Shown: piece after piece, positions 10,521-45,211 of the stretch
How positions within the stretch are numbered: the first letter of the stretch is position 1
Layout of the letters: each line of letters begins with the position of its first letter
Assembly: GCA_951812795.1 (NCBI GenBank)
Contig: OX638325.1
Location: 186,001-250,000 of the forward strand
DNA: 64,000 nucleotides
Direction: 5' to 3'
From: an uncultured Dehalococcoidia bacterium
Lineage (GTDB): Bacteria > Chloroflexota > Dehalococcoidia > Lucifugimonadales > Lucifugimonadaceae
The notes under the pieces: model-generated
Database searches by the model: none
The model's input: the letters and a program-made list of their open reading frames with translations, nothing else
What the model was told of the DNA's origin: nothing
Program-made: the position numbers and the translations under genes

Positions 10521-10949
10521 TTACTGCTTGGTCTCCCAGAAGATATTGCCGATCTCTTCGAGTGCCGCTTTGAAAGCTTCGGCAGCTTCCATGTCAATGT
10601 TCTGCTTGACCTGACTGCCGAGCTTGCACGCGTTCCACACGAGTTCGTGAAGGTTGGGGTGCTTCTCCAAATGCTCGGGTTTGAAGTAATCAGTCCAGAT
10701 TATTAGGATGTCGTCCTTCGCCTTTGTGGCGTGCTCTTCCTTGGCGGCAACGTAACGAATAAGACTGTTACGCGCGCCGAGGGTCGATACGTCTTCCGAT
10801 TCGAGTATCAACTCGGTCATGCGGATGCACGTCTGAGCAGCTTGGATCGCGTCATGCGGGTCGTAGATACCGCACGGAATGTCACAGTGTGCGTGTGCAA
10901 CGCCGAAGGGTGACAGTCGGTCGGCTAATCTTTTGACACTTCCTAGCAT
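10521..10949 (-). CDS. sodN: Nickel superoxide dismutase precursor
   Basis: The 142-residue precursor starts at the ATG at 10949, which has AAAGGAA 7 bases upstream; longer in-frame extension lacks such a site. Residues 1-20 are a short basic leader ending in VAHA, and the mature protein begins HCDIPCGIYDP, the Ni-hook of SodN: His1, Cys2 and Cys6 bind Ni. The rest is the expected four-helix bundle with a conserved YFKPEHLEKHPNLHELVW region. Mature length (122) is close to known SodN. It removes superoxide without iron or manganese. The processing protease gene sodX is divergent, 99 bp away. Confidence 0.95.
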   Translation of the reverse strand: MLGSVKRLADRLSPFGVAHAHCDIPCGIYDPHDAIQAAQTCIRMTELILESEDVSTLGARNSLIRYVAAKEEHATKAKDDILIIWTDYFKPEHLEKHPNLHELVWNACKLGSQVKQNIDMEAAEAFKAALEEIGNIFWETKQ

Positions 10950-10970
10950 TTTTCGGTTCCTTTCATACTT

Positions 10971-10989
10971 CCGCGAGGCATTGTCGCGG
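10971..10989. promoter_or_regulatory. Inverted repeat between sodN and sodX
   Basis: CCGCGA-N7-TCGCGG is a perfect 6-bp inverted repeat in the 99-bp divergent intergenic region, 22 bases upstream of the sodN ATG. A nickel-responsive or redox repressor could bind here; it does not match the TTGCA-type Nur box that I know. As RNA it would also form a hairpin in the sodN leader. Confidence 0.4.
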
Positions 10990-11048
10990 ATAGGTTGGGT
11001 GATAGTCGAATACGGGTCGATTATCCACTTCAAGAATAGACTAACCCG

Positions 11049-11540
11049 ATGATCGCTAGCGTCAAAAGGATATTACAAAGCGTCGGAGCGTTACCCGGTG
11101 CTGTAGTTGAGCGTTTGACCAGCAAGTGGGTAATTGTAGAAGGGCACTCGATGCATCCCACACTCCTAGATGGACAGCCCGTACGAGTTAGCCGCAGAGC
11201 CTATCGGATCGCCTCGCCTCAGCGATGGGATGTCGCGTTTTTCGAACACCCTCGTCGCGACCGCTTTTGGGAGACCAAAAGAGTTATCGGCCTACCCGGC
11301 GAGTCCGTGGTTTTGGAAAACGGGCGGCTTTACGTCGATGGTATCGAAATCGATGAACCATTCATTTTCGGTGTGCAACCGCGCGTCAACCGACAATGGC
11401 AATTGCAGGATAACGAGTACATCTTGTTTGGCGACAACCGGAGACGTTCTACCGACAGTCGGGAGTTTGGACCCGTTCCCCGCGATCGCATCGCAGGTAG
11501 GGTCGTTGTGCCGGAAAGTGATTCCTTCGGCAATCAATAA
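11049..11540 (+). CDS. sodX: Nickel-type superoxide dismutase maturation protease (S26 signal peptidase-like)
   Basis: 163 residues with the S26 fold: nucleophile Ser in EGHSMHPTL (about Ser34), general-base Lys in ETKRVIGLPGE (about Lys77), and the box GDNRRRSTDSREFGPV near residue 130. It is shorter than LepB and lacks an obvious N-terminal membrane anchor, like SodX proteins that trim the SodN leader to expose His1. The divergent position next to sodN makes this assignment firm. Start ATG at 11049. Confidence 0.9.
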   Translation: MIASVKRILQSVGALPGAVVERLTSKWVIVEGHSMHPTLLDGQPVRVSRRAYRIASPQRWDVAFFEHPRRDRFWETKRVIGLPGESVVLENGRLYVDGIEIDEPFIFGVQPRVNRQWQLQDNEYILFGDNRRRSTDSREFGPVPRDRIAGRVVVPESDSFGNQ

Positions 11541-11574: not shown

Positions 11575-12009
11575 TCACGCAGATTCTGTCGACATCTCTC
11601 GTATCAGGGCATTGACTCTTCGGGCAATCTCGTGGATCAAAGCGACGATCTCTTCGTCATCGGCCATCTCGGAGGGATCGGGCATATCCCAATCATCGAA
11701 ATCCGAGAATTTGATAGCCGGACATGCTTCAGCGTCTACGTTGCAACCCAAGGTGACAATTCGCGGCTCGGAAGCGAGCATCGAGTCTGTCAAAAGTTTC
11801 GGTGCCTCGTTGGTGGTGTCAAGATTGAATGATTCCAGAACGCGCTTAACCGATGGGTTGACCTGTTCGCCGGGGATCGTTCCCGCAGATTCAGACCGCA
11901 GGCCTAAACCAAGTCTGGTTGCATTGTCGTTGAATAGCACCTTGGCTGCCACACTCCGACCGGCGTTGTGAACGCAGACGAAGAGAACATCGATTCGGTC
12001 GTCACTCAT
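11575..12009 (-). CDS. arsC: Arsenate reductase, low-molecular-weight phosphatase (ArsC) family
   Basis: 144 residues. The phosphatase loop CVHNAGRS (Cys12 to Arg18, CX5R) is at the N terminus, followed by SAGTIPGEQVNPSVKRVL and a C-terminal TLGCNVDAEACPAI with two Cys that would complete a thioredoxin-type disulfide relay, then DWDMPDP. This fits thioredoxin-coupled ArsC, reducing arsenate to arsenite. GAGGAG stands 7 bases before the ATG. The start overlaps the end of the aquaporin gene by 8 bases, so arsenite made here could leave through the channel. Confidence 0.9.
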   Translation of the reverse strand: MSDDRIDVLFVCVHNAGRSVAAKVLFNDNATRLGLGLRSESAGTIPGEQVNPSVKRVLESFNLDTTNEAPKLLTDSMLASEPRIVTLGCNVDAEACPAIKFSDFDDWDMPDPSEMADDEEIVALIHEIARRVNALIREMSTESA

Positions 12010-12880
12010 ATCGGCTCCTCACGACTTCTTCAAGTTCTTTGTTGTTGCCTGGTAATCCGGTTTCGATAACCAGCTTGTAGATCAACGCTCCGATCGGAGC
12101 ACCCACGAGCGGTCCCACGATGTAAACCCAGAACCCGCCTTCTGGCCCAGGAATTGCGATTTCACCCCAACCAGCAAGGGCTGCTACGATCCGCGGCCCG
12201 AAATCGCGCGCCGGGTTCCAACCCGCTTGAGTGATCGGCGCGAACAGGCTAATCAACGCGGCAACTGTGAAGCCGATGAAAAACGGCGCCATTCCATTCG
12301 TCGGGATGCCAGCATTGCGCCGTTCGGTGAGGGCGAAAATGACCATCGCCAAAATAGCGGTGCCGAAGGCCTCTACCGCGAACGCATGGAACGGCGATAT
12401 GGATAGCGAATCGAACATTGCCGGATTCGGAAAGTACTCGCCGAACGCCATCGCCGATTTCTGGCTTCCTTCAGCGCCCCTGACGATTCCATTGTCAGAT
12501 TCGAACTGATCGATGAAGGGATTGAAGAGAATCAACACCACAATTCCGGCAAGGACTGCACCGAGCAACTGTGAGCCCCAGTAGGCAAAAAGGCGATCTA
12601 GCGGGAATTGGTCGCGGCGAAATATGACGAACGCGAGACTGACTGCTGGATTTAGGTGCGCACCTGAAACTGCACCACTAACGTATATCGCAATTGTCAC
12701 ACCGAAGCCCCAAACCGCAGCCACTTGCCACAACCCAATCTGTGCGCCGGTGTAGACTGCGGCCGCGACGGAACCAGTGCCGAATAGGACCAATATGAAG
12801 GTTCCCAGTGTCTCGCCCATGCAGGCATTCAACAATCGGGTCTTCTTGGGTGGGTCTGAATTCACCTTGACGAGGCTCAT
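12002..12880 (-). CDS. MIP-family channel (aquaglyceroporin, probable arsenite channel AqpS type)
   Basis: 292 residues, six membrane segments, with both half-helix motifs: GAHLNPAVSLAF in the first half and GWNPARDFGPR in the second. The Asp after the second NPAR is the glycerol-facilitator type. It is translationally coupled to hemB upstream (TGATG at 12878-12882) and to arsC downstream. GGGAA precedes the ATG at 12880; an in-frame ATG at 12901 has no such site. Pairing of MIP and ArsC is known from the Sinorhizobium meliloti aqpS-arsC arrangement, where arsenite leaves by downhill flow. A glycerol role remains possible. Confidence 0.85.
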   Translation of the reverse strand: MSLVKVNSDPPKKTRLLNACMGETLGTFILVLFGTGSVAAAVYTGAQIGLWQVAAVWGFGVTIAIYVSGAVSGAHLNPAVSLAFVIFRRDQFPLDRLFAYWGSQLLGAVLAGIVVLILFNPFIDQFESDNGIVRGAEGSQKSAMAFGEYFPNPAMFDSLSISPFHAFAVEAFGTAILAMVIFALTERRNAGIPTNGMAPFFIGFTVAALISLFAPITQAGWNPARDFGPRIVAALAGWGEIAIPGPEGGFWVYIVGPLVGAPIGALIYKLVIETGLPGNNKELEEVVRSRYE

Positions 12881-13878
12881 CAGCGAATTCCCTTGATCCA
12901 TCGCGCTGCATCGATGGCGAAATAGCTGATGATGGCGTCGGCACCAGCCCGTTTGATGCTTAGCAAGACTTCCAGAACCGTGTTCTCAAGATCAATCCAT
13001 CCCTTCGATGCCGCCGCATGAATCATCGAATATTCGCCGCTCACGTTGTAGGCGTACAGCGGGTGTTCTGGGAATCGGAAACTCGCAGCGGCGATCACAT
13101 CGAGATAAGAAAGGGCCGGTTTGACCATGATGAAGTCCGCGCCTTCAGCAATGTCGGCTTCGATTTCCTGCATCGCCTCTTCATGTTGGCTCGACGCCAT
13201 TTGGTAGGTGCGCCGATCGCCGAAACTCGGAGCAGAATCCGCGGCGTCTCGGAACGGGCCGTAGAAGGCCGAGGCATACTTCGCCGAGTATCCCAAGATC
13301 TTTACGCTTTCGTGGCCAGCATCATCGAGCGCGGCTCTAATCGCCGACACCTGTCCATCCATCATTGCCGACGGTGCCACCACGTTGGCGCCGGCATCGG
13401 CGTGAGATACCGCAGTATGCGCCAGCAAATCCAAAGTCGCGTCGTTGTCCACTTCGCCACTGGCGGTTAGTTGGCCACAGTGTCCGTGGTCGGTGTACTC
13501 GCACATGCATACGTCGGTGATCGTCTCGGCTTCAGGCAATTGCGCTCTGAACTCGGCGACGGTACGTTGAACCGCTTCGATTGGGGACCAAGCACGCGTG
13601 CCCGTCGCGTCTTTTTCGTCAGGTATGCCGAAGAAAAGGAAACGATTGACATCGGCGAGCATGGCAATTTCCGCTTCACGCATCGCTTCATCGGTCGACA
13701 TTCGGGCGATTCCCGGCATCGACGGCACGGGTTCGCGCCGGTTGACACCGTTGATGACGAACATTGGGTAAACGAATTCCGAACCGACGAGCTGCGTCTC
13801 CGCGTTTGACGCACGCACATCAGCACTCGACCGCAAAGGACGAAAACGTCGGAATTCGGGGAGGGCGGAGGATGACAT
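12880..13878 (-). CDS. hemB: Delta-aminolevulinic acid dehydratase (porphobilinogen synthase)
   Basis: 332 residues, full length. It contains the Zn-binding cysteine cluster CMCEYTDHGHCG (about residue 119), the first Schiff-base lysine region GYSAKYASAFYGPFR (about 195), and the second in FIMVKPALSYLD (about 250), then YNVSGEYSMI. It condenses two 5-aminolevulinate molecules to porphobilinogen. It is the fifth gene of the heme operon, 5 bases after cobA-hemD and sharing one base with the aquaporin ATG. The Cys-rich site shows it is the zinc type. Confidence 0.95.
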   Translation of the reverse strand: MSSSALPEFRRFRPLRSSADVRASNAETQLVGSEFVYPMFVINGVNRREPVPSMPGIARMSTDEAMREAEIAMLADVNRFLFFGIPDEKDATGTRAWSPIEAVQRTVAEFRAQLPEAETITDVCMCEYTDHGHCGQLTASGEVDNDATLDLLAHTAVSHADAGANVVAPSAMMDGQVSAIRAALDDAGHESVKILGYSAKYASAFYGPFRDAADSAPSFGDRRTYQMASSQHEEAMQEIEADIAEGADFIMVKPALSYLDVIAAASFRFPEHPLYAYNVSGEYSMIHAAASKGWIDLENTVLEVLLSIKRAGADAIISYFAIDAARWIKGIR

Positions 13879-13883
13879 TACTT

Positions 13884-15407
13884 TCAGGCGCGGTCTTGGA
13901 AATAGGTTGCCAAAGCTGAGACCATTCCCGGGATTGTTTGCTGTTCAGGAACGATGTCCACCCGAACCCCGAGAGACGTCGCCGTTTCAGTTGTTACCGG
14001 TCCCATGCAGACTACAACCCCATTGTTAATTCCAGTTACCTCTCCAGAGAGGAGGCCAACCAGGTTCTTGACTGTAGATGAGCTGGTGAACGTAACCACA
14101 TCGATTCCGACGTCGAAAGCTTTTCGTGCCATCTCCGCGGAATCCTCAGCGGTTACGGTCCGGTAAGCCGCGACTTCGGCCACATTCGCTCCGAGCTGGC
14201 GCAATCCGCGAGGCAGCGTATCTCGCCCTATATCAGATCTGAACACGACGGCAGTTTTTGGCGCTAAGTCACGGGCGCGAAACGCCTCCACCAACCCATC
14301 AGCCGTAAACGTGTCCGGCGTAAGGTCAGCGACGATGCCGTGCGACCTCAAAGCCGCGACCGTCGCAGGACCGACTGCGGCGAGTTTATTGCGTGCGAAC
14401 GCACGCGCGTCCGAACCCTTGGCATAAATGTGTTCCAACACTTGGTTCACCCCGTTCGGACTAGCAAACGCTACCCACTCAGCCTCCTCCAAATTTGCCA
14501 AAGCCGCGTCAAGTTCCGTTGTGTCTCTGAGGGGCGCTGATTTAATCACCGGGCATTCGACGACATCCGCACCGTAAGACGTCAATCCCCGTGCCAACCT
14601 GCTAGCTTGGCTGCGCGCACGCGTGACCAGTATGCGCTTGCCGAAAAGAGGAAGATTGTCGAACCAAGCGATGCGGTCTCGCAGGTCAACAACTCGGCCG
14701 ATGACCAGTGCTATCGGAGCGGTCAATTCGGTATCGGCCACCTTGGCTTCGATGTCGCTCAGCGTACCGGTTACCGTTCGTTGCATCGCGGAGGTGCCGC
14801 GTTGGATAGCCGCTACGGGTTCGTTTGGAGAGCGACCAAAGCCGATTAATCGAGATGCAATCTCGCCGATCCTAGTAGCGCCCATCAAAACTACGACGGT
14901 CCCGTTGGTCTTCGCGACTGGTTCCCAGTCGACACTAGTCCCAGAAGTGCCGGTGGTGCGTTCGCTGCCCGTGACGATGGTCACGGATGAGGCGACGCCG
15001 CGATGCGTTACCGGGATACCGCTGTAAGCTGCGGCTCCGATGGCTGAACTAACGCCCGGAACCACCTCGAACCGAACACCGGCTCCAGCAAGTGCCAATG
15101 CCTCTTCGCCGCCACGACCAAATACGAATGGGTCTCCACCTTTGAGCCGACAGACAGCTTTTCCGTGCTGCGCTCGATCGATCAACAATTCGTTAATTTC
15201 GGTTTGCGTTAGCGCCACGGCTCCGGGAGCTTTGGCGGCAGAGATCAACTCAGCATCTTTTCGAGCCTCGCGAAGGAGTTCGCTGGAAGCCAAACGGTCG
15301 TATACGACCACGTCTGCTTTGCGTAGCGCTTCAAGACCCTTGACGGTTACTAATCCGGGATCGCCGGGTCCCGCACCAACTAGCTGGACGGTGCCCTTTT
15401 TCGTCAT
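13884..15407 (-). CDS. cobA-hemD: Bifunctional uroporphyrinogen-III C-methyltransferase / uroporphyrinogen-III synthase
   Basis: 507 residues in two fused domains. Residues 1-245 are a SUMT: VQLVGAGPGDPGLVTVKG, RLKGGDPFVFGRGGEE, and VVPGVSSAIGAAAYSGIP are the standard SAM-binding signatures. Residues 255-507 are a HemD-like synthase, starting LFGKRILVTRARSQA and containing VAFASPNGV, AAVGPATVAALRSHG and VTFTSSSTVKNL. The protein would close hydroxymethylbilane to uroporphyrinogen III and methylate it to precorrin-2. Such fusions are common in Firmicutes and Chloroflexota. The ATG shares one base with the hemC stop (TAATG). Confidence 0.94.
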   Translation of the reverse strand: MTKKGTVQLVGAGPGDPGLVTVKGLEALRKADVVVYDRLASSELLREARKDAELISAAKAPGAVALTQTEINELLIDRAQHGKAVCRLKGGDPFVFGRGGEEALALAGAGVRFEVVPGVSSAIGAAAYSGIPVTHRGVASSVTIVTGSERTTGTSGTSVDWEPVAKTNGTVVVLMGATRIGEIASRLIGFGRSPNEPVAAIQRGTSAMQRTVTGTLSDIEAKVADTELTAPIALVIGRVVDLRDRIAWFDNLPLFGKRILVTRARSQASRLARGLTSYGADVVECPVIKSAPLRDTTELDAALANLEEAEWVAFASPNGVNQVLEHIYAKGSDARAFARNKLAAVGPATVAALRSHGIVADLTPDTFTADGLVEAFRARDLAPKTAVVFRSDIGRDTLPRGLRQLGANVAEVAAYRTVTAEDSAEMARKAFDVGIDVVTFTSSSTVKNLVGLLSGEVTGINNGVVVCMGPVTTETATSLGVRVDIVPEQQTIPGMVSALATYFQDRA

Positions 15408-16354
15408 TATGCGCTCGAGACGGCTGACAGTTGAGGCAACAATTCAAGCGCGCCTTGGTTGATGAGATTGTCGGCGACGCGCTTGCCAAGCTCGATGCCG
15501 TCTCGGATATCGGACGATTCGCGGTGGCGGACGATCTGCGTACCTGACGGTTCGGACACGAACGCGGCCAGAGTTATCGTGTCGTCGTCGATCCGAGCAT
15601 GTGCACCGATGGGCGCGCTACATCCACCTCCAATGTGAGCCAAAAATGCCCGCTCCGAATCTACGCTGACACGCGTCTCGGCGTGTTCGATCGCCGAACA
15701 CAATCCACTTGACAAATCGTCTTCCGCACGAGTTTGGAGCGCCAATGCACCTTGGCCGGGCGCGGCGACGAACGACATACATCCTAGGTATTCAGATATG
15801 CGGTCTGACACACCGAGTCGTTTCAGTCCCGCCGCGGCCAATACGAGGGCATCAATCACCGAATCTTCGTCGTCAAGCATCGCCAGTCGCGTGGTGACGT
15901 TCCCACGGATCGGTTTCAGAATCACATCTCCACGCTCGGCATTGATCAAAGCGCGCCTTCGGGCACTTCCGGTACCGACGATTGCGGCTTTAGGAAGGTC
16001 GTTCAACCCAACGCCGAGTTTGCTGACCACGACATCACGGGGGTCTTCACGATATGGCACACCAGATATGACTAGGCCATCGGCGATTTGCGAGGGGAGA
16101 TCTTTTAGGCTGTGCACCGCAATGTCGATCTCGCCTTCGAGTAAGGCGGCCTCGATCTCTTTCACGAATACGCCGACCCCGATCTCAGTTACCGCTACAT
16201 CCGGGCGGAAATCACCACTCGTCTTAATGCAGACGCGCTCAATCTCGATGTCGTCGAACCGTTCGGTCAATGCCTTCGCGACCTCGTCGGCCTGAGCGAT
16301 CGCGAGGCGACTGTTGCGACAACCTAAGACGATTTTTCGTGCGGCAAAAGTCAT
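15407..16354 (-). CDS. hemC: Hydroxymethylbilane synthase (porphobilinogen deaminase)
   Basis: 315 residues, normal length. It has the N-terminal CRNSRLAIAQADEV, VHSLKDLPSQ (with the catalytic Asp region nearby), GTGSARRRAL, and the dipyrromethane cofactor Cys in HIGGGCSAPIGAHA (about 240). It links four porphobilinogens into the linear tetrapyrrole used by HemD in the next gene. It is third in the operon, 11 bases after sirC. Confidence 0.95.
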   Translation of the reverse strand: MTFAARKIVLGCRNSRLAIAQADEVAKALTERFDDIEIERVCIKTSGDFRPDVAVTEIGVGVFVKEIEAALLEGEIDIAVHSLKDLPSQIADGLVISGVPYREDPRDVVVSKLGVGLNDLPKAAIVGTGSARRRALINAERGDVILKPIRGNVTTRLAMLDDEDSVIDALVLAAAGLKRLGVSDRISEYLGCMSFVAAPGQGALALQTRAEDDLSSGLCSAIEHAETRVSVDSERAFLAHIGGGCSAPIGAHARIDDDTITLAAFVSEPSGTQIVRHRESSDIRDGIELGKRVADNLINQGALELLPQLSAVSSA

Positions 16355-16365
16355 GTAATGGCATT

Positions 16366-17037
16366 TTATGCCTGACGGTTGAGCGCTGCGCGTTCTTCGA
16401 GGGCATCGACTAACATGCCACGCGCCGCGTCAGAGTTGCCGTCCCGGAATGCGCTCAACATCCGGTCTGTAATTGATTCTGCCCAGTCGTCGGGGGTCAC
16501 CGGCAATTCACGGGATCTGACGTCTTTCCGGACATCTGCGAGCATCGGACCCATGTCCGCCCACTGCAAGCAGCGGCAATACTCGTGATCCGATATTCGC
16601 TCGCGAAGCCGACGCGCTAGTGCCGGACTGGTTCCGGCGGTGGACACGGCCACCGTAACGTCTTGTCGTTGGATCAACGCCGGCGCAATAAAAGTGCACA
16701 ACGGAGTGACGTCCATGACATTGAGGAGGATATTTCGCTCCGCGGCTTCTTGAGATATGGCCTCGTTGGTCGCTGTATCGGAGGTGTCAGCGACGATCAC
16801 CACCCATGCTCCGGCCAAATCACCCGGTTCGTACTTTCGTCTCACCCAATCAATCTGCCCCGATGCCGCCATATTCGCAAGATTGTCCGACGTACCGTCT
16901 TCTGGACTGAACAGGGTAACGTTGGCGCCGCAATCGACGAGGTACTTGACCTTTCGTTCCCCTTCCTGGGGGTCACCGCCAAACACTAAGCAGCGACGGT
17001 TTTTGACGTCAACGAATACTCCGTAGTAGCGAGGCAT
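16366..17037 (-). CDS. sirC: Precorrin-2 dehydrogenase / siroheme synthase N-terminal (Met8/SirC-like)
   Basis: 223 residues. The N terminus YYGVFVDVKNRRCLVFGGDPQEGERKVKYL, given here as its first part YYGVFVDVKNRRCLVFGG, is the Rossmann NAD site of the CysG N-terminal domain; the middle has VVIVADTSDTATNEAI, then LLNVMDVTPLCTFIAPAL and a VAVSTAGTSPALARRLRERI segment. It oxidises precorrin-2 to sirohydrochlorin and may also insert iron. The SUMT domain found in CysG is on a separate gene here. Together with the following gene product it leads to siroheme, the substrate of AhbAB encoded just upstream. Confidence 0.9.
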   Translation of the reverse strand: MPRYYGVFVDVKNRRCLVFGGDPQEGERKVKYLVDCGANVTLFSPEDGTSDNLANMAASGQIDWVRRKYEPGDLAGAWVVIVADTSDTATNEAISQEAAERNILLNVMDVTPLCTFIAPALIQRQDVTVAVSTAGTSPALARRLRERISDHEYCRCLQWADMGPMLADVRKDVRSRELPVTPDDWAESITDRMLSAFRDGNSDAARGMLVDALEERAALNRQA

Positions 17038-17042
17038 GAGAA

Positions 17043-18155
17043 CTACCCAATCGCAGCGACCGCGGCGCGTTCGACGTCGATATTGTCATCGACGAAATAG
17101 CGCACCCGCGTCTTTTTGTACTCTCGGTGACTGTAGAGGAGTTGATAATCAGTTAATTCAGTTTCGCCCGCGATCTCAAATGCAATGTCTTCGCACTCGT
17201 CACGGGTGACGGCATGAATCATCGTGAAATGTGAGAATCGCCAGTCGTCGTACCTTGGGCGTTCGTAGCAGTGAGTGATCGCAGGATGCTTTGCCATTTT
17301 CTGACCAACTTCTATGGAACGAACTTCGGGTACGTTCCAAACCACCATCGCGTTGGCCGAAAAACCTGCCCGGCGATGGTGGAGCACCGCAGCATAACGG
17401 CGCATCAACCTTCGGTTGACCATCTCGTCGGCTTTGGCGAATAACTCTGGGACACTGAGTCCCAACCGTTCGGCCATTGCGTCAAATGGACGGGACTCCA
17501 GCGGCAAATCTTCTTGGAATTCACGAACAAACTCGATGTCGAAATCGCTCAAATTCTCGTCAGCGACAGGCACGCCGTTCGATGTCGTCCCGTTTTCCCC
17601 GCTATGAGCGAGCTTGGCGTCCGGTACGAAGTACTCCGTGGCGTTGGACACGTTTTTGACCATGTCGAAATTCACGCCGATCTTGAAAAATCGGATCGTC
17701 GGTAGGAGGCGCGCCGTTTCCGCACCGGATAGTTTGGTTAGTTTTTCGACCTCCGCGCCAATGTCTTTACCGGGCGGTAGAGCTAACGTGAACCAAAGAT
17801 TGAATTCGCCGTTTCGGGCGTAGTTGTGGCTGATGCCGGGATGGGCATTCAGAATCTGCGCACCGCGGTCTAAGCAGTCATCGGCGAAACGCATCGCCAC
17901 CAAAGTTGACGTATAGCCCAATCGTCGAGTATCGAAAATCGCGCCGATTTGTCGAACCACGTTTTTGCGTTTCAACTCACGCACACGATCGATCACTTCT
18001 GATTCGGCCAGGCCGCAACGATCGCCGATATCCTGAAATGGTTCAGGGACGAGCCGGAAATCCGACTGCAAGATGTTCATCACCTCGCGGTCGACCATGT
18101 CGAATTCGTCGCGCTTCAAGGTAGGCACTCGTGTGAGAGTTGGATTACAGCCCAA
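17043..18155 (-). CDS. ahbAB: Fused siroheme decarboxylase AhbA-AhbB (Lrp/AsnC-like, NirDL-type)
   Basis: About 370 residues made of two homologous halves, each an N-terminal winged helix plus an AsnC-like alpha/beta domain. Half 1 (about 15-170) has DREVMNILQSDFRLVPEPF, then VVRQIGAIFDTRRLGYTSTL and HPGISHNYARNGEFNLWFT. Half 2 (about 205-355) has ESRPFDAMAERLGLS, MRRYAAVLHHRRAGFSANAM, and HPAITHCYERPRYDDWRFS. These are the marks of siroheme decarboxylase, which makes 12,18-didecarboxysiroheme for heme (or heme d1). In sulfate reducers the two subunits are separate genes. The first codon is uncertain: the longest frame starts with TTG, and internal TTG, GTG or ATG starts at 18125-18098 are possible. 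First gene of the heme operon. Confidence 0.88.
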   Translation of the reverse strand: MGCNPTLTRVPTLKRDEFDMVDREVMNILQSDFRLVPEPFQDIGDRCGLAESEVIDRVRELKRKNVVRQIGAIFDTRRLGYTSTLVAMRFADDCLDRGAQILNAHPGISHNYARNGEFNLWFTLALPPGKDIGAEVEKLTKLSGAETARLLPTIRFFKIGVNFDMVKNVSNATEYFVPDAKLAHSGENGTTSNGVPVADENLSDFDIEFVREFQEDLPLESRPFDAMAERLGLSVPELFAKADEMVNRRLMRRYAAVLHHRRAGFSANAMVVWNVPEVRSIEVGQKMAKHPAITHCYERPRYDDWRFSHFTMIHAVTRDECEDIAFEIAGETELTDYQLLYSHREYKKTRVRYFVDDNIDVERAAVAAIG

Positions 18156-18230: not shown

Positions 18231-19580
18231 TTACGTGGAAAGTCGTTTCAGCGCCAAATCGGCCGCTAAACGACCGCTCTTTACGGCGCCTTCCATAGTC
18301 GCTGGTAGACCGGTATTGGTCCAATCGCCGGCAATGTGAAGGCCCGCGATGTCGACATCTGCATCAAGCCGATGGTCCTGCGAACTGGGGTTCACTTTTA
18401 TCGTCGCTTCGAGCGTCTTGACCACCGCGGAGTTGATTAATTTATTGCCGGGCGCGGCCCGAAAGGCACGTTGCATCGCCGACGATATACGCTCAAGGAC
18501 CTCCTCTTTTCTCAAACTCGCCCAAGAATCGGCTCCGCTCAAGGAAACCACGATGTGCTGAGGCCCGTCGCTTGACCGATCCCGAATGACAGAATCGTTG
18601 AAGACCCACTGCAATCCGAGGTCGAGAAAAGCCATTACCGGCACGGACATCACTGGTTTTTCGTACCAAAGATGGACGGCGACGATAGGGGAGTAGTCGA
18701 GCGTGGTCAGCGAATTCTTGACCGCGTCAAATGTTGCATCAGACGACGGAAGGACGCTGTTGAGGGCGTTTGGCGCCAATGCCGAAATGACATTACCAGA
18801 CCGCAATGTTTCGTCGTCAGACAAGCCGACCTCGAACTGCCCTGATTCGCAACGAGCAACGGAGATGACGCGCGTGTTGGTTATCAATTCCGTACCCCGC
18901 GACCCTAAGAATTCTGTTGCCGGGGTACCAATTAGTGACGACAATCCCATCTTCGGATAGCCAATCGCCGCATCGCGGACGCTACCTAACAACGCAGACC
19001 GCGTGAATTGGAGCCCATCGAGTGCGGTTACCTCATCGATAGCGCAGTTGAAGACCGGCAATATGAAGAGGGACCAGAAACGCTCGATCGCTACGCTGGA
19101 CTGGCCCTGAGAGGAAAGCCAATGGCCGAACGACATGGTACGCAGTCGTTTGCTCTCATTGCGGCTAATCAGATTCAACTTGATTTTGAATAGGAGACGA
19201 ATAATCGAGATTCGGTTCGACAGTCGGAGGTGACGGTAGTTGAGTAAAGCGGCTGCATTGCCGAAGACGCGGCTCGCCCGAAGGTTGGAAGTAATACCGT
19301 TCATCGACACCGGGACATCGAGAGTGGGGCGAAGATCCATTTGATCTCTCGTGCCCAGATCTTCCAAGAGATCTAGGAATTGGTGGCAGACGCCAAGTAT
19401 GACGTGTTGGCCATTGTCGATCTCCTCGCCACTGATTCGATCCACGAACGAGAATGCTCGACCACCTAAGAAGGGGCGTCGTTCGATCAAGGTGGGCTTG
19501 ATGCCACGTTTTAGCAAGTGAACGGCGGCTGCGATACCGGCGATGCCACCACCAAGGATTATGACGTCGCGGTCGCTCAA
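18231..19580 (-). CDS. hpnE: Hydroxysqualene dehydroxylase
   Basis: 449 residues, an FAD-dependent amine-oxidase-fold protein: N-terminal dinucleotide site DVIILGGGIAGIAAAVHLL, then ERRPFLGGRAFSF and DNGQHVILG, and a C-terminal HIAGDWTNTGLPATMEGAVK FAD segment. HpnE reduces hydroxysqualene to squalene, the last of the three HpnC/D/E steps. The start is TTG, overlapping the hpnD stop by four bases (TTGA). It is the last gene of the squalene cluster; a cyclase is not present in the window. Confidence 0.9.
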   Translation of the reverse strand: MSDRDVIILGGGIAGIAAAVHLLKRGIKPTLIERRPFLGGRAFSFVDRISGEEIDNGQHVILGVCHQFLDLLEDLGTRDQMDLRPTLDVPVSMNGITSNLRASRVFGNAAALLNYRHLRLSNRISIIRLLFKIKLNLISRNESKRLRTMSFGHWLSSQGQSSVAIERFWSLFILPVFNCAIDEVTALDGLQFTRSALLGSVRDAAIGYPKMGLSSLIGTPATEFLGSRGTELITNTRVISVARCESGQFEVGLSDDETLRSGNVISALAPNALNSVLPSSDATFDAVKNSLTTLDYSPIVAVHLWYEKPVMSVPVMAFLDLGLQWVFNDSVIRDRSSDGPQHIVVSLSGADSWASLRKEEVLERISSAMQRAFRAAPGNKLINSAVVKTLEATIKVNPSSQDHRLDADVDIAGLHIAGDWTNTGLPATMEGAVKSGRLAADLALKRLST

Positions 19581-20479
19581 TTCCCGTCCCGCTGATCATT
19601 GCGACCAACCGTACGCCACGCACCTCGCCAAGCGACGCCGAGGGTCATCGAAAGTTTCTCCGATGTTGATAGACTGACCCGGTTGGACAATATGTCAGCG
19701 TCTTCCTCGCCGATCTTGTCCAATATCCGCGAGTAGAACCCGCTCATCAACTCGAGGCATTGTCTGCCGCGCGTGGCCAATGGGATCACTCGTTCTCCGC
19801 GTTCGTAATAGCCGCGGGCGCGATCAACCTGGAAACGCAACAATCTTCTGAAATTGGCGCTGGACGTGTCGAGAGCGAATTCGGTCTCAGACACACCAAA
19901 CTCTCGCAGCTCATCGCGGGGCAGATACACCCTGCCATTGCGGTAGTCTTCGCGAATATCGCGGAGTATGTTCGTCAACTGAAACGCGATCCCTAGATCG
20001 TTAGCGTATTTGAGGGCAATTGGTGATTGATGACCGAAAATGCTGATGCAAATGAGCCCGACCGAGCTCGCGACGCGCCGACAGTAGACACTGAGTTCGT
20101 CGAATGTCTCATACCGATCCGTACCAATGTCCATCCTGCAACCATCAATCACATCGACGAAATACTGTTTGTCCAAGTCGAAACGTTCCATTGCGTGTTC
20201 AACGGCAACAAAAATCGGATCGTCTCCGTAACTCGTGACCGTTCGATTGTCCAGCGCAGCCTGCACCAGATCCAGTTCGGTCGCCGGATCCCGACCCGAA
20301 GCAGGTTCGTCCACAATGTCGTCGCACAGACGGCAGAATGCGTATGTGGCGAAGATTGCGCGTCGCAGTTCATTCGGAAGCGCCAAAAATCCAATGTAGA
20401 AGTTTGAGCTTGACGAACGAGTTATCCGAGCGCACTCACGATACGCGGTTTCGATCCTGTTGTCCATCACTTCTGCCAT
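19577..20479 (-). CDS. hpnD: Presqualene diphosphate synthase (trans-isoprenyl diphosphate synthase, HpnD)
   Basis: 300 residues. It has both Asp-rich motifs of squalene/phytoene synthases: AFCRLCDDIVDEP (about residue 50) and QLTNILRDIREDYRNGRVYLP (shown in part, DIREDYRNGRVYLP; about 165). HpnD joins two farnesyl diphosphates to presqualene diphosphate. The ATG at 20479 lies 10 bases after the hpnC stop; the longer frame to 20557 would overlap hpnC by 68 bases and is not preferred. Phytoene synthase is an alternative, but the HpnC-HpnE context argues against it. Confidence 0.88.
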   Translation of the reverse strand: MAEVMDNRIETAYRECARITRSSSSNFYIGFLALPNELRRAIFATYAFCRLCDDIVDEPASGRDPATELDLVQAALDNRTVTSYGDDPIFVAVEHAMERFDLDKQYFVDVIDGCRMDIGTDRYETFDELSVYCRRVASSVGLICISIFGHQSPIALKYANDLGIAFQLTNILRDIREDYRNGRVYLPRDELREFGVSETEFALDTSSANFRRLLRFQVDRARGYYERGERVIPLATRGRQCLELMSGFYSRILDKIGEEDADILSNRVSLSTSEKLSMTLGVAWRGAWRTVGRNDQRDGN

Positions 20480-20489
20480 GCCACATCGA

Positions 20490-21428
20490 CTATGCCGATC
20501 CCAATCGACGCTCAGAGTTGCTAAGGAACGAGTCAGCTGACACAGGGGTGAGCCCAATCAACTTCCTCGCGACGATGCTCAGCATGATCCGAACTTTCTT
20601 AGCTCGCGATACCGTCGGCCGGACCGTGAGCGTATCGTAGTCCAACTGCTCGATCGCGTCCAGTACGGACAGTCCCCCAGCGGTGATGGCGGAGAATTCC
20701 AGCCGGAAATCACGTTCGAGGTGTTCATAGAGGCCATAACCGTCTCGAAATAAATCGCGAGTGCGCTCGACTTGGAACTTCATCAATTGGCGATACTGAG
20801 GGGTGGGTTCGCGATCTCCGATGGTTGATTCGTCAACACCAAAAGTAGACATGTCAGACTGGGGAATGTAGATTCGGCCTTTAAGATAATCGCGCCAGAC
20901 ATCCTGCCAGAAATTCGCAAGTTGCAACGCAATGCAGGTATGATCCGACAGCGCTGCCATCTGTTCCGAGAAATATCCGTACAGGTAGAGAACCAGGTGA
21001 CCGACGGGTGTCGCGGAATGGGTGCAGTATTCAACCAACGCATGGTAATCCGAGTACCGTCTATCCCTCTGGTCACGCCGATTCGCTTCGATTAATCGCA
21101 GGAAAGGCTCGGGCGGGATAGCGAATTCTTCGATAGTCTGCCTCAACGCTTGAAACCACACCAGATTTGGGTTGCCTTGGTAGCAGAGCATCAATTCATG
21201 TTCCCACCGATCGAGCAGTTCCAATCGATCATCATCGACCTCATCCCCAAGGTCGTCGACCAACCGACAAAACGCGTACACCGAGTAGAAATGCGGTCGC
21301 AGACTTGCTTTGATGAATCTGCTGCCGACGTTGAAGTTTTCGTAGCTCGTGCCGGCCAAATTCCGGCAGGCATCAAAGGCGGCTGCGACGTCCCTCGCGT
21401 TGCCAGTGAAATGTACTGTAGCGTCCAT
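20490..21428 (-). CDS. hpnC: Hydroxysqualene synthase (HpnC)
   Basis: 312 residues of the squalene/phytoene synthase family: ENFNVGSRFIKASLRPHFY, the first Asp-rich motif AFCRLVDDLGDEVDDD (about 52), and the second LANFWQDVWRDYLKGRIYIP (about 165). The NFNVGS opening and WQDVWRDY form are typical of HpnC, which converts presqualene diphosphate to hydroxysqualene. It follows the polyprenyl synthase gene by 30 bp. Confidence 0.9.
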   Translation of the reverse strand: MDATVHFTGNARDVAAAFDACRNLAGTSYENFNVGSRFIKASLRPHFYSVYAFCRLVDDLGDEVDDDRLELLDRWEHELMLCYQGNPNLVWFQALRQTIEEFAIPPEPFLRLIEANRRDQRDRRYSDYHALVEYCTHSATPVGHLVLYLYGYFSEQMAALSDHTCIALQLANFWQDVWRDYLKGRIYIPQSDMSTFGVDESTIGDREPTPQYRQLMKFQVERTRDLFRDGYGLYEHLERDFRLEFSAITAGGLSVLDAIEQLDYDTLTVRPTVSRAKKVRIMLSIVARKLIGLTPVSADSFLSNSERRLGSA

Positions 21429-21458
21429 GACAGTAACGTCTAACGAGATAGATTAGCC

Positions 21459-22511
21459 CTAAGCACTTCGTTCGACTAGGAAGTCGCCAAGTTCACGGAA
21501 GTCCGTGTTGACACTTGTGCCCAGATCTAATTCGTCGATGATTTGTTCAGCCTCCGACCAATGGTTCGCCGACATTGAATCACAAAATTCGTAGGTGCCG
21601 ATCGAATCCATAATCTCGAGCACCGTCTCCACATCGTGGCCGGTTAGGTCGGTCTTCTGGTAAATGCTCTGAATCTGATTAGCCGCCGCTCCCCGCGCCG
21701 AACTAAGCGCGTGTACGGCTGGCAGTGATTTTTTCTTGTTGTAGATATCGCCGCAAACTGGTTTCCCGGTTTCATCGGAACCCCACACCCCGAGCATGTC
21801 ATCTCGGATCTGAAATAACCGACCGAATTGGTATCCAACCCTTCGCAAGCCATCAGAGATACGCTCATCCGACCTACCGTTGGCGGCAACCAGCCCGCCA
21901 ACGTGAAGACTGGCCTCGATCAACGCCCCGGTTTTACGTGCGATCATGGCTAGATATTCGTCGATCGTCACTTCGGCTCGGCTCTCGAATGATATGTCGA
22001 GATGTTGCCCTTCGATCATCGACAAGTACGCTTCTACAATCAATCGCTGGGCTAGGATCGAGGTCGGCAGATCGACGCCAAATTCCAACATCTCGCGTGC
22101 AGCACGATCCGCGACCTTGAGCATCGAATTGCCTGACACGATGGCCATCGGTTCGCCCCAGACCACCCACATCGTCGGACGGTGGTGCCTGAAGCGATCT
22201 TGGTCTTCGATATCGTCGTGTACCAACGAAAAATTATGGACGTATTCAAGGGCGATCGCCGCGGGCAGGGCGTATTCAATCTCACCGCCTACAGCTTCAG
22301 CTCCGAGTAGAGCGATGGTAGGCCTAAGGCGTTTGCCCTCCGTGGCAACCAAATCTGATCCGTCTTTGTCAGCCCAACCCATGTGATACCGGTGGGTCGC
22401 GGATATCTCGGTCGCGTAACCTCGTAATTCGGCGCGTAGGGCGCGATCGATCACCGATTGGTAACGAGCGAAAAACGATGGCAATTGAGTTCGTTCAGCT
22501 AATGCGGGCAT
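21459..22511 (-). CDS. Polyprenyl (probably farnesyl/geranylgeranyl) diphosphate synthase
   Basis: 350 residues from the ATG at 22511. It has GKRLRPTIALLGAEAVGG, the first Asp-rich motif in SLVHDDIEDQDRFRHHRPT, and the second in QIRDDMLGVWG followed by GDIYNKKKSLPAVHAL. It elongates allylic diphosphates with IPP. Standing directly upstream of hpnC-hpnD-hpnE, it most likely supplies farnesyl diphosphate; product length cannot be read reliably from the residues before the first motif. The longer frame to 22598 has no better start. Confidence 0.9.
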   Translation of the reverse strand: MPALAERTQLPSFFARYQSVIDRALRAELRGYATEISATHRYHMGWADKDGSDLVATEGKRLRPTIALLGAEAVGGEIEYALPAAIALEYVHNFSLVHDDIEDQDRFRHHRPTMWVVWGEPMAIVSGNSMLKVADRAAREMLEFGVDLPTSILAQRLIVEAYLSMIEGQHLDISFESRAEVTIDEYLAMIARKTGALIEASLHVGGLVAANGRSDERISDGLRRVGYQFGRLFQIRDDMLGVWGSDETGKPVCGDIYNKKKSLPAVHALSSARGAAANQIQSIYQKTDLTGHDVETVLEIMDSIGTYEFCDSMSANHWSEAEQIIDELDLGTSVNTDFRELGDFLVERSA

Positions 22512-22602
22512 GATGTGTTCACAAATGATACGCAATGTCAATGCTAAGCATCCGTGCCAGCGGTCACCCGCTAATCGAGCATTCGACACGATCACCAAAC
22601 GC

Positions 22603-40268: not shown

Positions 40269-40691
40269 GGCTGTTGCGTTGTTTGGGTACTGCGGTGACG
40301 CTGGGGGTTGGTTGTTGTTTTGGGGACGCGTTTAATTGAAGGTGGGTGTGTGCCTCCTTTGTGCTCCCTTTGAGCGGGGGCGGGTTGGTTATGGTTCCTT
40401 TTCAGAGAAAGGGAACGGGTTTTGGTTTTTGAGCTTGCTTCGATTTTGGAAGCGTTGCTCGGTGGGACATCGCCGCTTTGCTGCGAGATGTTGGACTGCC
40501 GACTTCCCTCGTCCGGTCACTGCCCGCGTCGCCAGACCGCGGGCCCTCTCGGCGACCAATCTGTTGAGTCGCGTCGCCGATCATCGGGTAGTTTTGCACA
40601 TCCTCGTGCCGTAGCCGCGGCCCCGCAGCGAGTGGGGCCCGACGTCTGCCGAATCCACGACCGTTTATCTGGCCCTTGGCTTGACATTGGT

Positions 40692-40770
40692 GGCCTCCCC
40701 CTAACCCCCTCCTGAAGGAGGGGGGACAGGTACTTGCCGTGCTCCTGGAGGAGGGGGGACAGGTGCTTGT
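40692..40770. repeat. Family A palindrome (GGAGGGG type), one full and one partial copy
   Basis: The full copy (40692-40726) reads CCTCCCCCTAACCCCCTCC then a TGAA loop and GGAGGGGGG. A partial copy (CCTGGAGGAGGGGGG plus ACAGGTGCTTG) follows at 40744-40770. Confidence 0.8.
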
Positions 40771-41117
40771 CGTCTTGGGGGAGGTCATGAATGTCTTGCT
40801 GGCTCGTGTTGCCGGGGGTGCATTAGTCCCCGGCGACCAGAACTTGTTACTTCGATCGCTTCGAACGGAACCGCTAGACCTTGCGCCCGTCTCAAGATTG
40901 GGCGAGGGGCGTCGCTGCTGGTCGTTTCTGCGCGCGGACGGGTCCGGGTTACCTTTGCAGGACCCCGTGTCCCCGTTTTGTGTTCCTTGCGTTTCCACGA
41001 TCTGACGCTTTGTCCCTTCGGTCTTTCGGCTAGATTGGTGTCCGCACTCGTCAGGGCGGCGATGTCTTTTGAATTCATTTTTAATAATACCACGGATGTA
41101 ACGGTTGTCAAGTGGTT

Positions 41118-41162
41118 GTTTGAACTAGGATGTGAGGGATTGGGAAGGATTTTAAGGATGGG
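41118..41162 (+). repeat. GAACTAGGATG-type repeat, copy 2
   Basis: TTTGAACTAGGATGTGAGGG followed by ATTGGGAAGGATTTTAAGG. Same family as copy 1 and the copy at 48398. Confidence 0.65.
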
Positions 41163-41239
41163 TGTTGTGGGAGGGGGTGTTGCGGTGATGGTGGGTGGAT
41201 GCATGTTGGGGTGATCCGCGCCCCTTGGCCGCCCGGTTG

Positions 41240-41279
41240 CCCTCACCCTAGCTCTCTCCCGCCTAGCGGGAGAGGGGAC
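41240..41279. repeat. Family B palindrome (CTCTCCCGC/GCGGGAGAG), copy 1
   Basis: A CTCACCCTAG leader and CTCTCCCGC-CTA-GCGGGAGAG hairpin. Further copies at 43596-43635 and 53170-53211 share the upstream GGCCGCCCCGGTTGCC-like leader. Confidence 0.85.
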
Positions 41280-41326
41280 GGTTGTTGGGAGAGAGAGAGG
41301 GTGCTTCTGCGCCTGCGGGGTGTTGA

Positions 41327-41476
41327 GATTCCTCGCTGCGCTCGGAATGACATGGATCAGGCTCGGAATGACAAGGGTCGCGTTGGGCATTACGTGGATC
41401 GCGTTGGGAATGACGTGGATCGCGAATGGGCATGTACGTGGATCGCGATTGGGATGACGCGGATTGGGATTGGGAT
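41327..41476. repeat. CHSERSEES-type repeat with degenerate tandem GGAATGACGTGGATCGCG units
   Basis: Starts with ATTCCTCGCTGCGCTCGGAA, whose complement encodes the well-known artefact peptide CHSERSEES, and runs into about seven imperfect units of about 20 bp (GGAATGACGTGGATCGCGTT and variants). A second copy lies at 42143-42225. Confidence 0.8.
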
Positions 41477-41477
41477 T

Positions 41478-41744
41478 TTAGCGATATGCTCGGTCGCGGC
41501 GGACTACCTTGAGTACTAGCACTCGCAAAACTTCGTCTTGGATTTCACAGATGACTCGATAATCTCCGACTCGGTAACGCCACCAGCCGCGTAGCGGCCC
41601 AGATAGCGCCGTACCCAACTGCCTTGGGTTTTCCGAATCGGCGACTCGCTGGCGCATGTAGTCAATGATTCGTCGTGTGGTAGGCCTATCGAGTTTGCGG
41701 AGTTCGGATCTGGCGGATCTGGTGTACTCAATCGTCCAAGCCAA
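41478..41744 (-). CDS. RelE/ParE-family toxin
   Basis: 88 residues with the RelE fold pattern: TIEYTRSARSELRKLDRPTT, then a helix, LSGPLRGWWRYRVGDYRVICEI (LRGWWRYRVGDYRVICEI), and LRVLVLKVVRRDRAYR. Such toxins cleave mRNA on the ribosome. The start is TTG (AAGG 7 bases before it), inside the 3' end of the antitoxin gene, a 17-base overlap that keeps the two in step. It stops directly beside a repeat array. Confidence 0.88.
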   Translation of the reverse strand: MAWTIEYTRSARSELRKLDRPTTRRIIDYMRQRVADSENPRQLGTALSGPLRGWWRYRVGDYRVICEIQDEVLRVLVLKVVRRDRAYR

Positions 41745-41955
41745 GGTCTCGCCTTATTTCCTCTTCGGAGAAGACTTCTTCCTCGCCTTTGCGGACGCGC
41801 TCCGAGATTTCTGCGGCGAGGTAGTAGTCCTCGATGTCATCGATGCTTCGTTCGATCATCTCGCGGATGTAGAAGGCTTTCGTGCGGCGCGTCTTTGATG
41901 CGAGGTTGTCGAGTCGACGCTCGGTTTCGGGTTGCAGTCGAATGGAGGTAGGCAT
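41728..41955 (-). CDS. RelB/DinJ-like ribbon-helix-helix antitoxin
   Basis: 75 residues from the ATG at 41955. The N terminus MPTSIRLQPETERRLDNLAS is a ribbon-helix-helix DNA-binding domain, followed by KAFYIREMIERSIDDIEDYY and an acidic C terminus likely to wrap the toxin. An in-frame ATG at 41991 would place the start over the promoter and is not preferred; the still longer frame runs through repeat DNA. It is cotranscribed with the RelE-like toxin and probably binds the palindrome just upstream. Confidence 0.85.
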   Translation of the reverse strand: MPTSIRLQPETERRLDNLASKTRRTKAFYIREMIERSIDDIEDYYLAAEISERVRKGEEEVFSEEEIRRDLGLDD

Positions 41956-41975
41956 ATAGGGCTCTGCATTCTGGA

Positions 41976-41998
41976 CGATACGTGTATTCATTGTATCG
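41976..41998 (-). promoter_or_regulatory. Operator/promoter of the RelBE-like pair
   Basis: CGATAC-N11-GTATCG, a perfect 6-bp inverted repeat 21-43 bases upstream of the antitoxin ATG. It overlaps a minus-strand -10-like TACAAT, with TTCAGA 18 bases upstream as a weak -35. This is the layout expected for autorepression by an RHH antitoxin. Confidence 0.6.
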
Positions 41999-42468
41999 GC
42001 CGTGGGCCTGTCGTCTGAACCGCGGATTGCGCGGGTTTTCGCGGATCGGCTAGGATGGGTTGTTGTTTGTTGGGGGTATTGCGTTGATGTCGGGGTTGGG
42101 TGTTTGGGTGTGGCGTGGGTTTTTCGCGTGATGGGTTGTTGGGATTCTTCGCTGCGCTCGGAATGACAAGGGTCGCGTTGGGAATGACATGAATTGGGAT
42201 CGGGATGACGTGGATCGCGTTGGGGGCTGTGCACAACCTCACTTACGACGGATTCACGGTCAGATCACGTGCGCCTCCCGTTGCCCCGCCCCTCTGGATG
42301 GGCGTTCCGCCCGCTGAAGCGCCGGCTTTCGCCGGAATGACGGTGGTTATGCACAGAACCCGTTGGGGTTGACTGGGGGTTGTTGGCCATCCCTTGCGTT
42401 CGCTTCGCTGACCCCCTCTGAATCTCCCCCTGAAGGGGGAGGGTATTAGGAGTGCGCGGGGTGCGGAA
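41999..42468. other. Repeat-rich intergenic region upstream of the toxin-antitoxin pair
   Basis: No gene. It holds a CHSERSEES-type repeat (42143-42225), a CGCCGGCTTTCGCCGG hairpin repeat (about 42314-42343) and a CCTCCCCCTGAAGGGGGAGG-like palindrome (about 42411-42443). Confidence 0.7.
42143..42225. repeat. CHSERSEES-type repeat, copy 2
   Basis: TCTTCGCTGCGCTCGGAATG followed by ACAAGGGTCGCGTTGGGAAT and two further degenerate units. Same family as 41327-41476. Confidence 0.75.
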
Positions 42469-43494: not shown

Positions 43495-43595
43495 GGGATG
43501 GGCCGTAGGAAAAGAGGCGGGTGTTTGGGAGAGGTTTTTGGTTGACGGTTGCGTGGTGGAAGTTTACCTTGCTCCGCCCTTTTGGCCACCCCGGT

Positions 43596-43635
43596 TGCCC
43601 TCACCCTAGCCCTCTCCCGCCGAGCGGGAGAGGGG
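43596..43635. repeat. Family B palindrome, copy 2
   Basis: TTGCCCTCACCCTAGCCC followed by CTCTCCCGC-CGA-GCGGGAGAG. Confidence 0.85.
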
Positions 43636-43716
43636 ATAAATCGGTGGTTGATTCGACTGGTAAAGCGTAATGAATTTGAGTGGTTTTGAGGGGGATCTAT
43701 TTGCGGCAAACCAAAA

Positions 43717-43936
43717 GGCGACCGCAAGCGTAGCCCCTACGGTTGGGTTGTTGTGGACCGTGTGGGTTTTGCCGCGAACGAGGCGAGGGCGACCACAAGG
43801 GTCGCCCCTACAGTTGGGGTCCGAGCGGGAGGGAATCCCTAGAAGTCGGGTTGGCCGGAGGGCCAGTTACAGTTGTCGGGTGGCCAGACGTTTCTTATAC
43901 GGGAATGGTAAGGGCGACCACAAGGGTCGCCCCTAC
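43717..43936. repeat. Family D repeats (GGGCGACC...GGTCGCCC), three copies
   Basis: The core GGGCGACCACAAGGGTCGCC pairs with itself (GGGCGACC / GGTCGCCC) and is followed by CCTACNGTT. Copies 2 and 3 are 125 bp apart as part of a tandem duplication; copy 1 is more diverged (GCGACCGCAAGCGTAGCC). Confidence 0.8.
43839..43893 (-). pseudogene. Duplicated 3' end of the ABM-domain gene
   Basis: On the minus strand the frame reads NVWPPDNCNWPSGQPDF and stop, nearly the same as the last 17 residues of the neighbouring gene (NVWPPDNFNWSSGQPDF and stop), 120 bp away. Each copy is preceded on the plus strand by a family D repeat, so a unit of about 120-125 bp was duplicated in tandem. It is a gene remnant, not a gene. 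Confidence 0.8.
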
Positions 43937-43958
43937 GGCTGAAGTCCGACGGGAAACC

Positions 43959-44678: not shown

Positions 44679-44772
44679 TTGGTTCTCCTGATTGTTGGGT
44701 GGGCTTTGATTGCCGTTATGGAGTATATCGCGGGGATTGAAAATCACCCCTCCTTGAGGGGGATTTTGGCGC
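44679..44772. other. Short spacer between the ABM gene and the family A array
   Basis: No gene seen; the family A/B2 array begins at 44773 and continues to 45153. Confidence 0.6.
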
Positions 44773-45153: not shown

Positions 45154-45211
45154 TTTTGGGGGATTGCCATTTTGGTTGGATGGATTTGTTGATGGGGTGT
45201 ATGGTGTACGT

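Follow-up and report, generated by a model that had tools for sequence, protein, structure and literature searches.

A fused AhbA-AhbB siroheme decarboxylase gene heading an early-heme operon in a Dehalococcoidia genome: probable entry into a hybrid route to heme

The ahbAB gene and its operon

The window, i.e., the whole stretch of 64,000 nucleotides analysed (C1:186001-250000), belongs to a Dehalococcoidia genome (G000) which is assembled as one contig of 2.61 Mb and is 94% complete. ahbAB is located at 17043-18155 on the minus strand and forms one open frame coding for 370 amino acids from a TTG start. An alternative in-frame TTG at 18119 gives a product of 358 amino acids, the length of AhbAB in the genus mates G002, G005, and G006, and is probably the true start. 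The initial annotation had described two Lrp-like halves fused in one gene; both are recognised above cut-off, residues 22-165 by the NCBIfam siroheme decarboxylase alpha model NF040708 (246 bits, cut-off 140) and residues 210-353 by the beta model NF040707 (240.8 bits, cut-off 125). Pfam finds the AsnC_trans_reg2 and NirdL-like_HTH domains twice each. Of the solved structures, 4CH7 comes closest, a NirD-like protein contained in a single chain (212 bits over residues 24-357); next are chains A and B of 4CZD from D. desulfuricans.

Across 20 aligned relatives, H110 and H314 do not vary and H295 hardly does, and the siroheme decarboxylase motifs HNYxR, NLWFT, HCYxRP, and MxH are retained; the protein was also aligned with 4CH7. 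Some of these positions are presumably essential for activity. In G045 (L086:3110-4132) proline replaces the otherwise conserved histidine of HCYxRP, which is either a real change or an assembly error. The two nearest named genes among the matches listed (81% identity) come from metagenome-assembled genomes (MAGs) labelled Dehalococcoidia and Chloroflexi. Judging by its sequence, AhbAB is an ordinary member of the known siroheme decarboxylase family and would thus convert the C12 and C18 acetates to methyls.

The AhbA-AhbB fusion itself is already known and not new. The same two Lrp-like halves make up Hydrogenobacter thermophilus NirDL (4CH7/4CZC) and D. desulfuricans AhbA/AhbB (4CZD/4UN1), and in 4CH7 they share one chain. 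PMC4835899 names the source organisms of the 4CH7 and 4CZD chains and describes 4CZC as one chain carrying both domains, and PMC11237513 reports fused ahbA-ahbB in 14 TACK lineages and most Euryarchaeota. The setting in G000 differs from both systems in the presence of HemQ and the absence of AhbC, AhbD, and NirJ.

ahbAB is followed on the minus strand by sirC (16366..17037), coding for a precorrin-2 dehydrogenase of the CysG N-terminal type (TIGR01470, 120 bits, cut-off 62) which may additionally insert iron, hemC (15407..16354, hydroxymethylbilane synthase; TIGR00212, 302 bits), a cobA-hemD fusion (13884..15407) coding for uroporphyrinogen-III methyltransferase and synthase (TIGR01469 (CobA), 284 bits; PF02602 (HEM4), 206 bits), and hemB (12880..13878, porphobilinogen synthase; NF006762, 441 bits, cut-off 297). 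The profile matches thus bear out all four genes which had been assigned to an operon headed by ahbAB. Intergenic gaps range from -1 to 11 bp. Most of the ahbAB loci examined in relatives show the same order, and this conservation of both fusion and gene order indicates that the arrangement is not due to chance. AhbC and AhbD are missing from the window, as had been stated, and hemA or hemL were not seen by eye among the window reading frames listed. Promoter and terminator scans returned sites no commoner than in shuffled sequences, and a look for repeats around the operon gave nothing notable.

Directly upstream of ahbAB and in the same direction (18231-22598, minus strand) lie hpnE (330 bits, above cut-off), HpnD-like and HpnC genes, and a polyprenyl-diphosphate synthase gene, whose best NCBIfam match, under cut-off, is an encapsulin-2 cargo prenyltransferase; this block is conserved beside ahbAB within the family. 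At its other end the operon continues, overlapping, into genes for a MIP channel and a low-molecular-weight phosphatase family protein, possibly ArsC-like (11575-12901, minus strand), which may form an arsenic-efflux pair carried along with the heme operon. A protein with an HCDIPCGIYDP motif, which we take to be a nickel superoxide dismutase, is encoded beside a signal-peptidase-like gene at 10521-11540, and relatives keep both genes in the vicinity of ahbAB (families F11 and F12). The frames at 40402-45170 are full of an SFRRGLGGG-like repeated peptide and, by their look, reflect translation of a short interspersed DNA repeat and not true genes.

Heme pathway genes in G000 and its relatives

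Ferrochelatase (PF00762) had no match in G000. The sole URO-D-domain protein was rejected as HemE: it scores 72 bits with the hemE model (cut-off 303) and is of the MtaA/CmuA methyltransferase type (NF004889, 264 bits; TIGR01463, 239 bits). The best genome-wide matches to the AhbC (TIGR04546) and AhbD (TIGR04545) models reach 42 and 60 bits, respectively, and both are MoaA. A radical-SAM search gave ten matches. Nine could be assigned, to MoaA, MiaB, MtaB, HemW, LipA, MqnC, MqnE, RlmN, and a DNA-repair-linked family, and the remaining one (L214) falls short of the Pfam cut-off and had no NCBIfam model match at the limit used. Neither the profile nor the radical-SAM searches of G000 found a NirJ-type protein. 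At the sensitivity used, G000 therefore shows no sign of a protoporphyrin branch or of the radical-SAM half of the Ahb route.

These results bear unevenly on the initial annotation, which had read the locus as making heme, or d1 heme, through siroheme, with ahbC and ahbD to be sought elsewhere in the genome and hemE and hemH expected to be absent. The protoporphyrin branch is indeed absent, lacking ferrochelatase and a true hemE, and a siroheme decarboxylase does lead the operon. The absence of AhbC and AhbD and the presence of HemQ speak against the route in that form, and the d1 alternative is not supported, as the searches of G000 gave no NirJ-type radical-SAM protein. Its remark that the route is not standard knowledge in this group is only partly true, since Chloroflexota are already said to mix enzymes of three heme routes in a review citing Kim et al. 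2021 (PMC10991733). Siroheme and heme biosynthesis have also been noted in SAR202 deep lineages, in a passage which gives no genes (PMC11245477).

HemQ/ChdC is encoded in G000 at C1:995764-996318 (PF06778, 164.6 bits), outside the window and about 790 kb from ahbAB. The protein has 226 amino acids and carries no fused second domain. Among solved structures its best matches are annotated as coproheme decarboxylases (77 bits), ahead of chlorite dismutases (53 bits). Y128, K132, and H151 align with Geobacillus HemQ, and we take them to be the catalytic tyrosine, the neighbouring lysine, and the proximal histidine. The NCBIfam cut-offs are not reached (HemQ_actino, 105 vs 235 bits; NF008913, 70 vs 253 bits), so this is a divergent member of the wider family. 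On sequence grounds it can be proposed to stand in for AhbD. In several families a NirA-like siroheme nitrite/sulfite reductase gene lies beside or near hemQ (L053:7288-9120 and relatives). It was rejected as the source of a missing enzyme: it occurs in genomes without AhbAB too and is a decayed remnant in G026 (C77:13229-13516), which keeps AhbAB and HemQ.

Co-occurrence was followed in 60 related genomes, most from the same family or order and all incomplete MAGs. AhbAB is present in 30 of them, with both halves in one frame in 29; G027, where the halves lie on two contigs, was counted, and G056 and G057, with weak Lrp-like matches of about 150-170 amino acids, were not. HemQ is likewise present in 30. 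Both proteins occur in 26 genomes, AhbAB alone in 4, HemQ alone in 4, and neither in 26 (Fisher p = 1.3e-8); per genus the corresponding counts are 13, 2, 3, and 17 (p = 3e-5), both tests ignoring relatedness. Among the HemQ-only genomes, G013 and G039 have ferrochelatase, G001 is 76% complete, and G056 has the weak AhbAB-like match. Among those with AhbAB only, G048 carries AhbC and an adjacent AhbD-like gene, G027 (61% complete) carries an AhbC-type gene, and completeness is 88% for G003 and 82% for G049. Ferrochelatase was found in 13 of the 60 genomes, never together with AhbAB.

AhbC-type genes were found in 12 of the 60 genomes (above 450 bits, none above the curated cut-off of 650 bits). 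Genomes with both AhbAB and HemQ have AhbC in 9 of 26 cases and lack it in 17, including G000. The AhbD family search covered G000; for relatives, a second and weaker match adjacent to AhbC was taken to indicate AhbD. One operon of G048 (L090), a genome without HemQ, combines ahbAB, sirC, hemA, AhbC and AhbD-like genes, hemC, and cobA-hemD.

A proposed route and its alternatives

We consider it probable, at roughly two chances in three, that AhbAB feeds a hybrid heme route with a siroheme head, a middle step not carried out by AhbC, and a HemQ tail. CobA would convert uroporphyrinogen III to precorrin-2 and SirC would carry it to sirohydrochlorin and siroheme, where iron would enter. AhbAB would then produce 12,18-didecarboxysiroheme, from which a non-AhbC-like and probably oxygen-tolerant enzyme would remove two acetates to give coproheme (iron-coproporphyrin III), the presumed substrate of HemQ/ChdC for the formation of heme b. 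These functions are established for the enzyme families and are assigned to the G000 proteins by homology. In anaerobes the conversion of didecarboxysiroheme to coproheme is performed by the radical-SAM enzyme AhbC. Three points are inferred here: a working pathway, an enzyme behind the missing step, and oxygen tolerance of that enzyme. The route is favoured by the model scores of AhbAB and its fused solved homolog, by the co-occurrence of AhbAB with HemQ and never with ferrochelatase, and by the many AhbAB genomes without AhbC; the scores of HemQ below the NCBIfam cut-offs and the distance of about 790 kb between hemQ and ahbAB count against it. The absent joining enzyme is both the weak point and the main interest of the hybrid route, as it points to an undiscovered heme-making step.

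Heme is evidently needed in these organisms, as cytochrome oxidase subunit I has matches in 59 of the 60 genomes (58 above cut-off). The need could also be served by import of heme or coproheme, AhbAB and HemQ being relics or used for salvage only. For this order such uptake is plausible, given that 15 of the 60 genomes (G007, G010, G022, G023, G031, G035, G041, G044, G046, G050, G051, G053, G055, G057, and G059) have no AhbAB, HemQ, AhbC-type gene, or ferrochelatase, and all of these except G023 have cytochrome oxidase subunit I. Such genomes possibly belong to heme auxotrophs or use yet another route. For G000 we consider this explanation unlikely, because AhbAB keeps its conserved residues across 20 relatives and its position at the head of the operon, and because AhbAB and HemQ are retained together.

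Less probable still is a complete Ahb pathway with AhbC and AhbD in the unassembled part of the genome. The 94% completeness of G000 and the 9 relatives combining AhbAB, HemQ, and AhbC leave some room for it. Against it, the genus, with seven genomes, is entirely without AhbC-type genes, and five genera contain AhbAB genomes both with and without AhbC. Moreover, the one-chromosome Dehalococcoidia records L143, L147, and L168 and the complete genome of Rubrobacter marinus have AhbAB and HemQ without AhbC.

Instead of an enzyme, AhbAB could be an Lrp/AsnC-type regulator that senses heme or siroheme and controls its own operon, given that its family is Lrp-like and that M. barkeri AhbAB binds heme, a regulatory role being considered in PMC3942049. 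We find this improbable in view of scores above the cut-offs of both enzyme models, intact siroheme decarboxylase motifs, and co-occurrence with HemQ. A NirDL-like role in heme d1 synthesis, suggested by membership in the same family and by a NirD-like protein being the nearest solved fused chain, is very improbable in a genome that has no NirJ-type radical-SAM protein and where HemQ co-occurs instead.

The hybrid route shares its parts with known systems. CobA, SirC, and AhbAB are common to G000 and the Ahb pathway of methanogens and sulfate reducers, whose AhbC and AhbD are absent from G000. HemQ/ChdC as the last enzyme is shared with the coproporphyrin-dependent pathway, from which G000 differs in lacking hemE and ferrochelatase and in the entry of iron, which would occur at siroheme. 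A further likeness is seen with Haloferax volcanii: according to PMC5746218, it has nirDL, nirGH, AhbC, AhbD, and PitA/ChdC, and thus shares with G000 siroheme decarboxylases, a ChdC-type last enzyme, and the lack of uroD, cgoX, and cpfC. Haloferax keeps AhbC and AhbD, both of which are absent from G000, and the HemQ of G000, as noted, has no second domain. The same paper assigns PitA to aerobic and AhbD to anaerobic growth, the authors allowing for an unknown coproheme source. Among haloarchaea, chdC is present in nearly all and ahbD in two thirds (PMC8305020).

AhbAB beyond the order and a HemQ-linked aldo/keto reductase

When named genomes were scanned with the AhbAB alignment, at least 585 confirmed relatives emerged, the best 80 of which were kept; these 80 include Chloroflexota, Thermoactinomycetaceae, Rubrobacter, Thaumarchaeota, Armatimonadetes, Nitrospirota, Elusimicrobia, Omnitrophota, and others. 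The wider set consists of 38 of those 80 loci (33 of the 36 in L169-L204 and 5 of the 44 in L125-L168). HemQ is present in 36 of its 38 genomes (not in G069 and G074), and AhbC above 400 bits in five (G067, G069, G070, G072, and G092). A 102-bit AhbC match in Rubrobacter marinus was rejected as a mycofactocin maturase. In ten Thaumarchaeota loci hemQ is part of the ahbAB/sirC/hemA/hemB cluster, and in one Elusimicrobia locus it comes directly 3' of ahbAB. In five Rubrobacter loci (L172, L186, L188, L189, and L191) ahbAB is directly followed by a gene for what appears by eye to be a TauE/SafE-like exporter-type membrane protein.

On a quick tree with long branches, built from 53 AhbAB proteins (27 from G000 and relatives, 26 from named-genome loci), the AhbC label changes 13 times, compared to 12.6 with shuffled labels. 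AhbC therefore comes and goes irrespective of AhbAB descent, a scatter partly raised by genes missing from incomplete genomes. The pathway around AhbAB, with a siroheme head, a HemQ tail, and no AhbC, would be a new variant, and this gene pattern recurs in several groups.

The surroundings of hemQ in the wider set offer a candidate for the middle step. A subfamily of aldo/keto reductases (AKR; PF00248, about 335 amino acids, with a common stretch around TKxGYD) adjoins HemQ in 19 of the 38 genomes, namely in 12 Thaumarchaeota, 5 Rubrobacteria or Actinobacteria, 1 proteobacterial MAG, and 1 Dehalococcoidia MAG (Dino_bin38), which represent about four lineages, not 19 independent cases. The AKR gene is directly upstream of hemQ in Rubrobacteria/Actinobacteria, and a DUF1802 gene separates the two in Thaumarchaeota where the locus was read through. 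In the Thaumarchaeota loci L175, L181, L184, L190, L192, L195, L200, L201, L203, and L204 this HemQ-DUF1802-AKR block stands beside ahbAB, sirC, hemA, and hemB; in ammonia-oxidizing archaea HemQ goes by the name of chlorite-dismutase-like protein. All 19 genomes are without AhbC; among the 33 of 36 HemQ genomes whose hemQ surroundings were considered (G076, G082, and G095 left out), the pair occurs in 19 of 29 without AhbC and in 0 of 4 with it.

The subfamily is absent from the 20 hemQ regions read in relatives of G000 and from the 1.269 Mb (48.6%) of G000 read, where seven AKRs score 92-141 bits vs at least 499 bits for subfamily members. An AKR gene beside ahbAB in G045 (L086:1921-2952) was set aside as an ordinary AKR without the subfamily signature. 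A plasmid search with the HemQ-linked AKR gave 1,683 records, all below 60% identity. No deacetylation of the didecarboxysiroheme type is known to us in the aldo/keto reductase superfamily. The open-licence literature searched contained no paper joining HemQ, aldo-keto reductase, and heme biosynthesis. We regard the HemQ-linked AKR as a lead for the conversion of didecarboxysiroheme to coproheme, an unproven candidate.

The siroheme route is usually described as an anaerobic way to heme. We tentatively suggest, with more doubt than confidence, that an oxygen-compatible form of it, comprising AhbAB, a non-radical-SAM deacetylase, and HemQ, may operate in Dehalococcoidia/SAR202, Rubrobacteria, and ammonia-oxidizing archaea. 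The deacetylase would be the HemQ-linked AKR in ammonia-oxidizing archaea, Rubrobacteria, the proteobacterial MAG, and the one Dehalococcoidia MAG, while other lineages, perhaps that of G000, would carry the AKR unlinked or use another enzyme. Candidates for the missing step are directly testable in a published E. coli assay in which, according to PMC3942049, no iron-coproporphyrin III was formed without Methanosarcina barkeri AhbC.

The finding bears on the aerobic coproheme source in Haloferax, left open in PMC5746218. It also bears on heme synthesis in ammonia-oxidizing archaea, described in a passage of PMC4010524 as lacking the two radical-SAM genes, with further screening called for, and on the role of their chlorite-dismutase-like proteins, called of unknown function in a passage of PMC10432482. 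If AhbAB and HemQ work together without AhbC, this would constitute a further layout of heme synthesis, with an undiscovered enzyme, in abundant marine prokaryotes.
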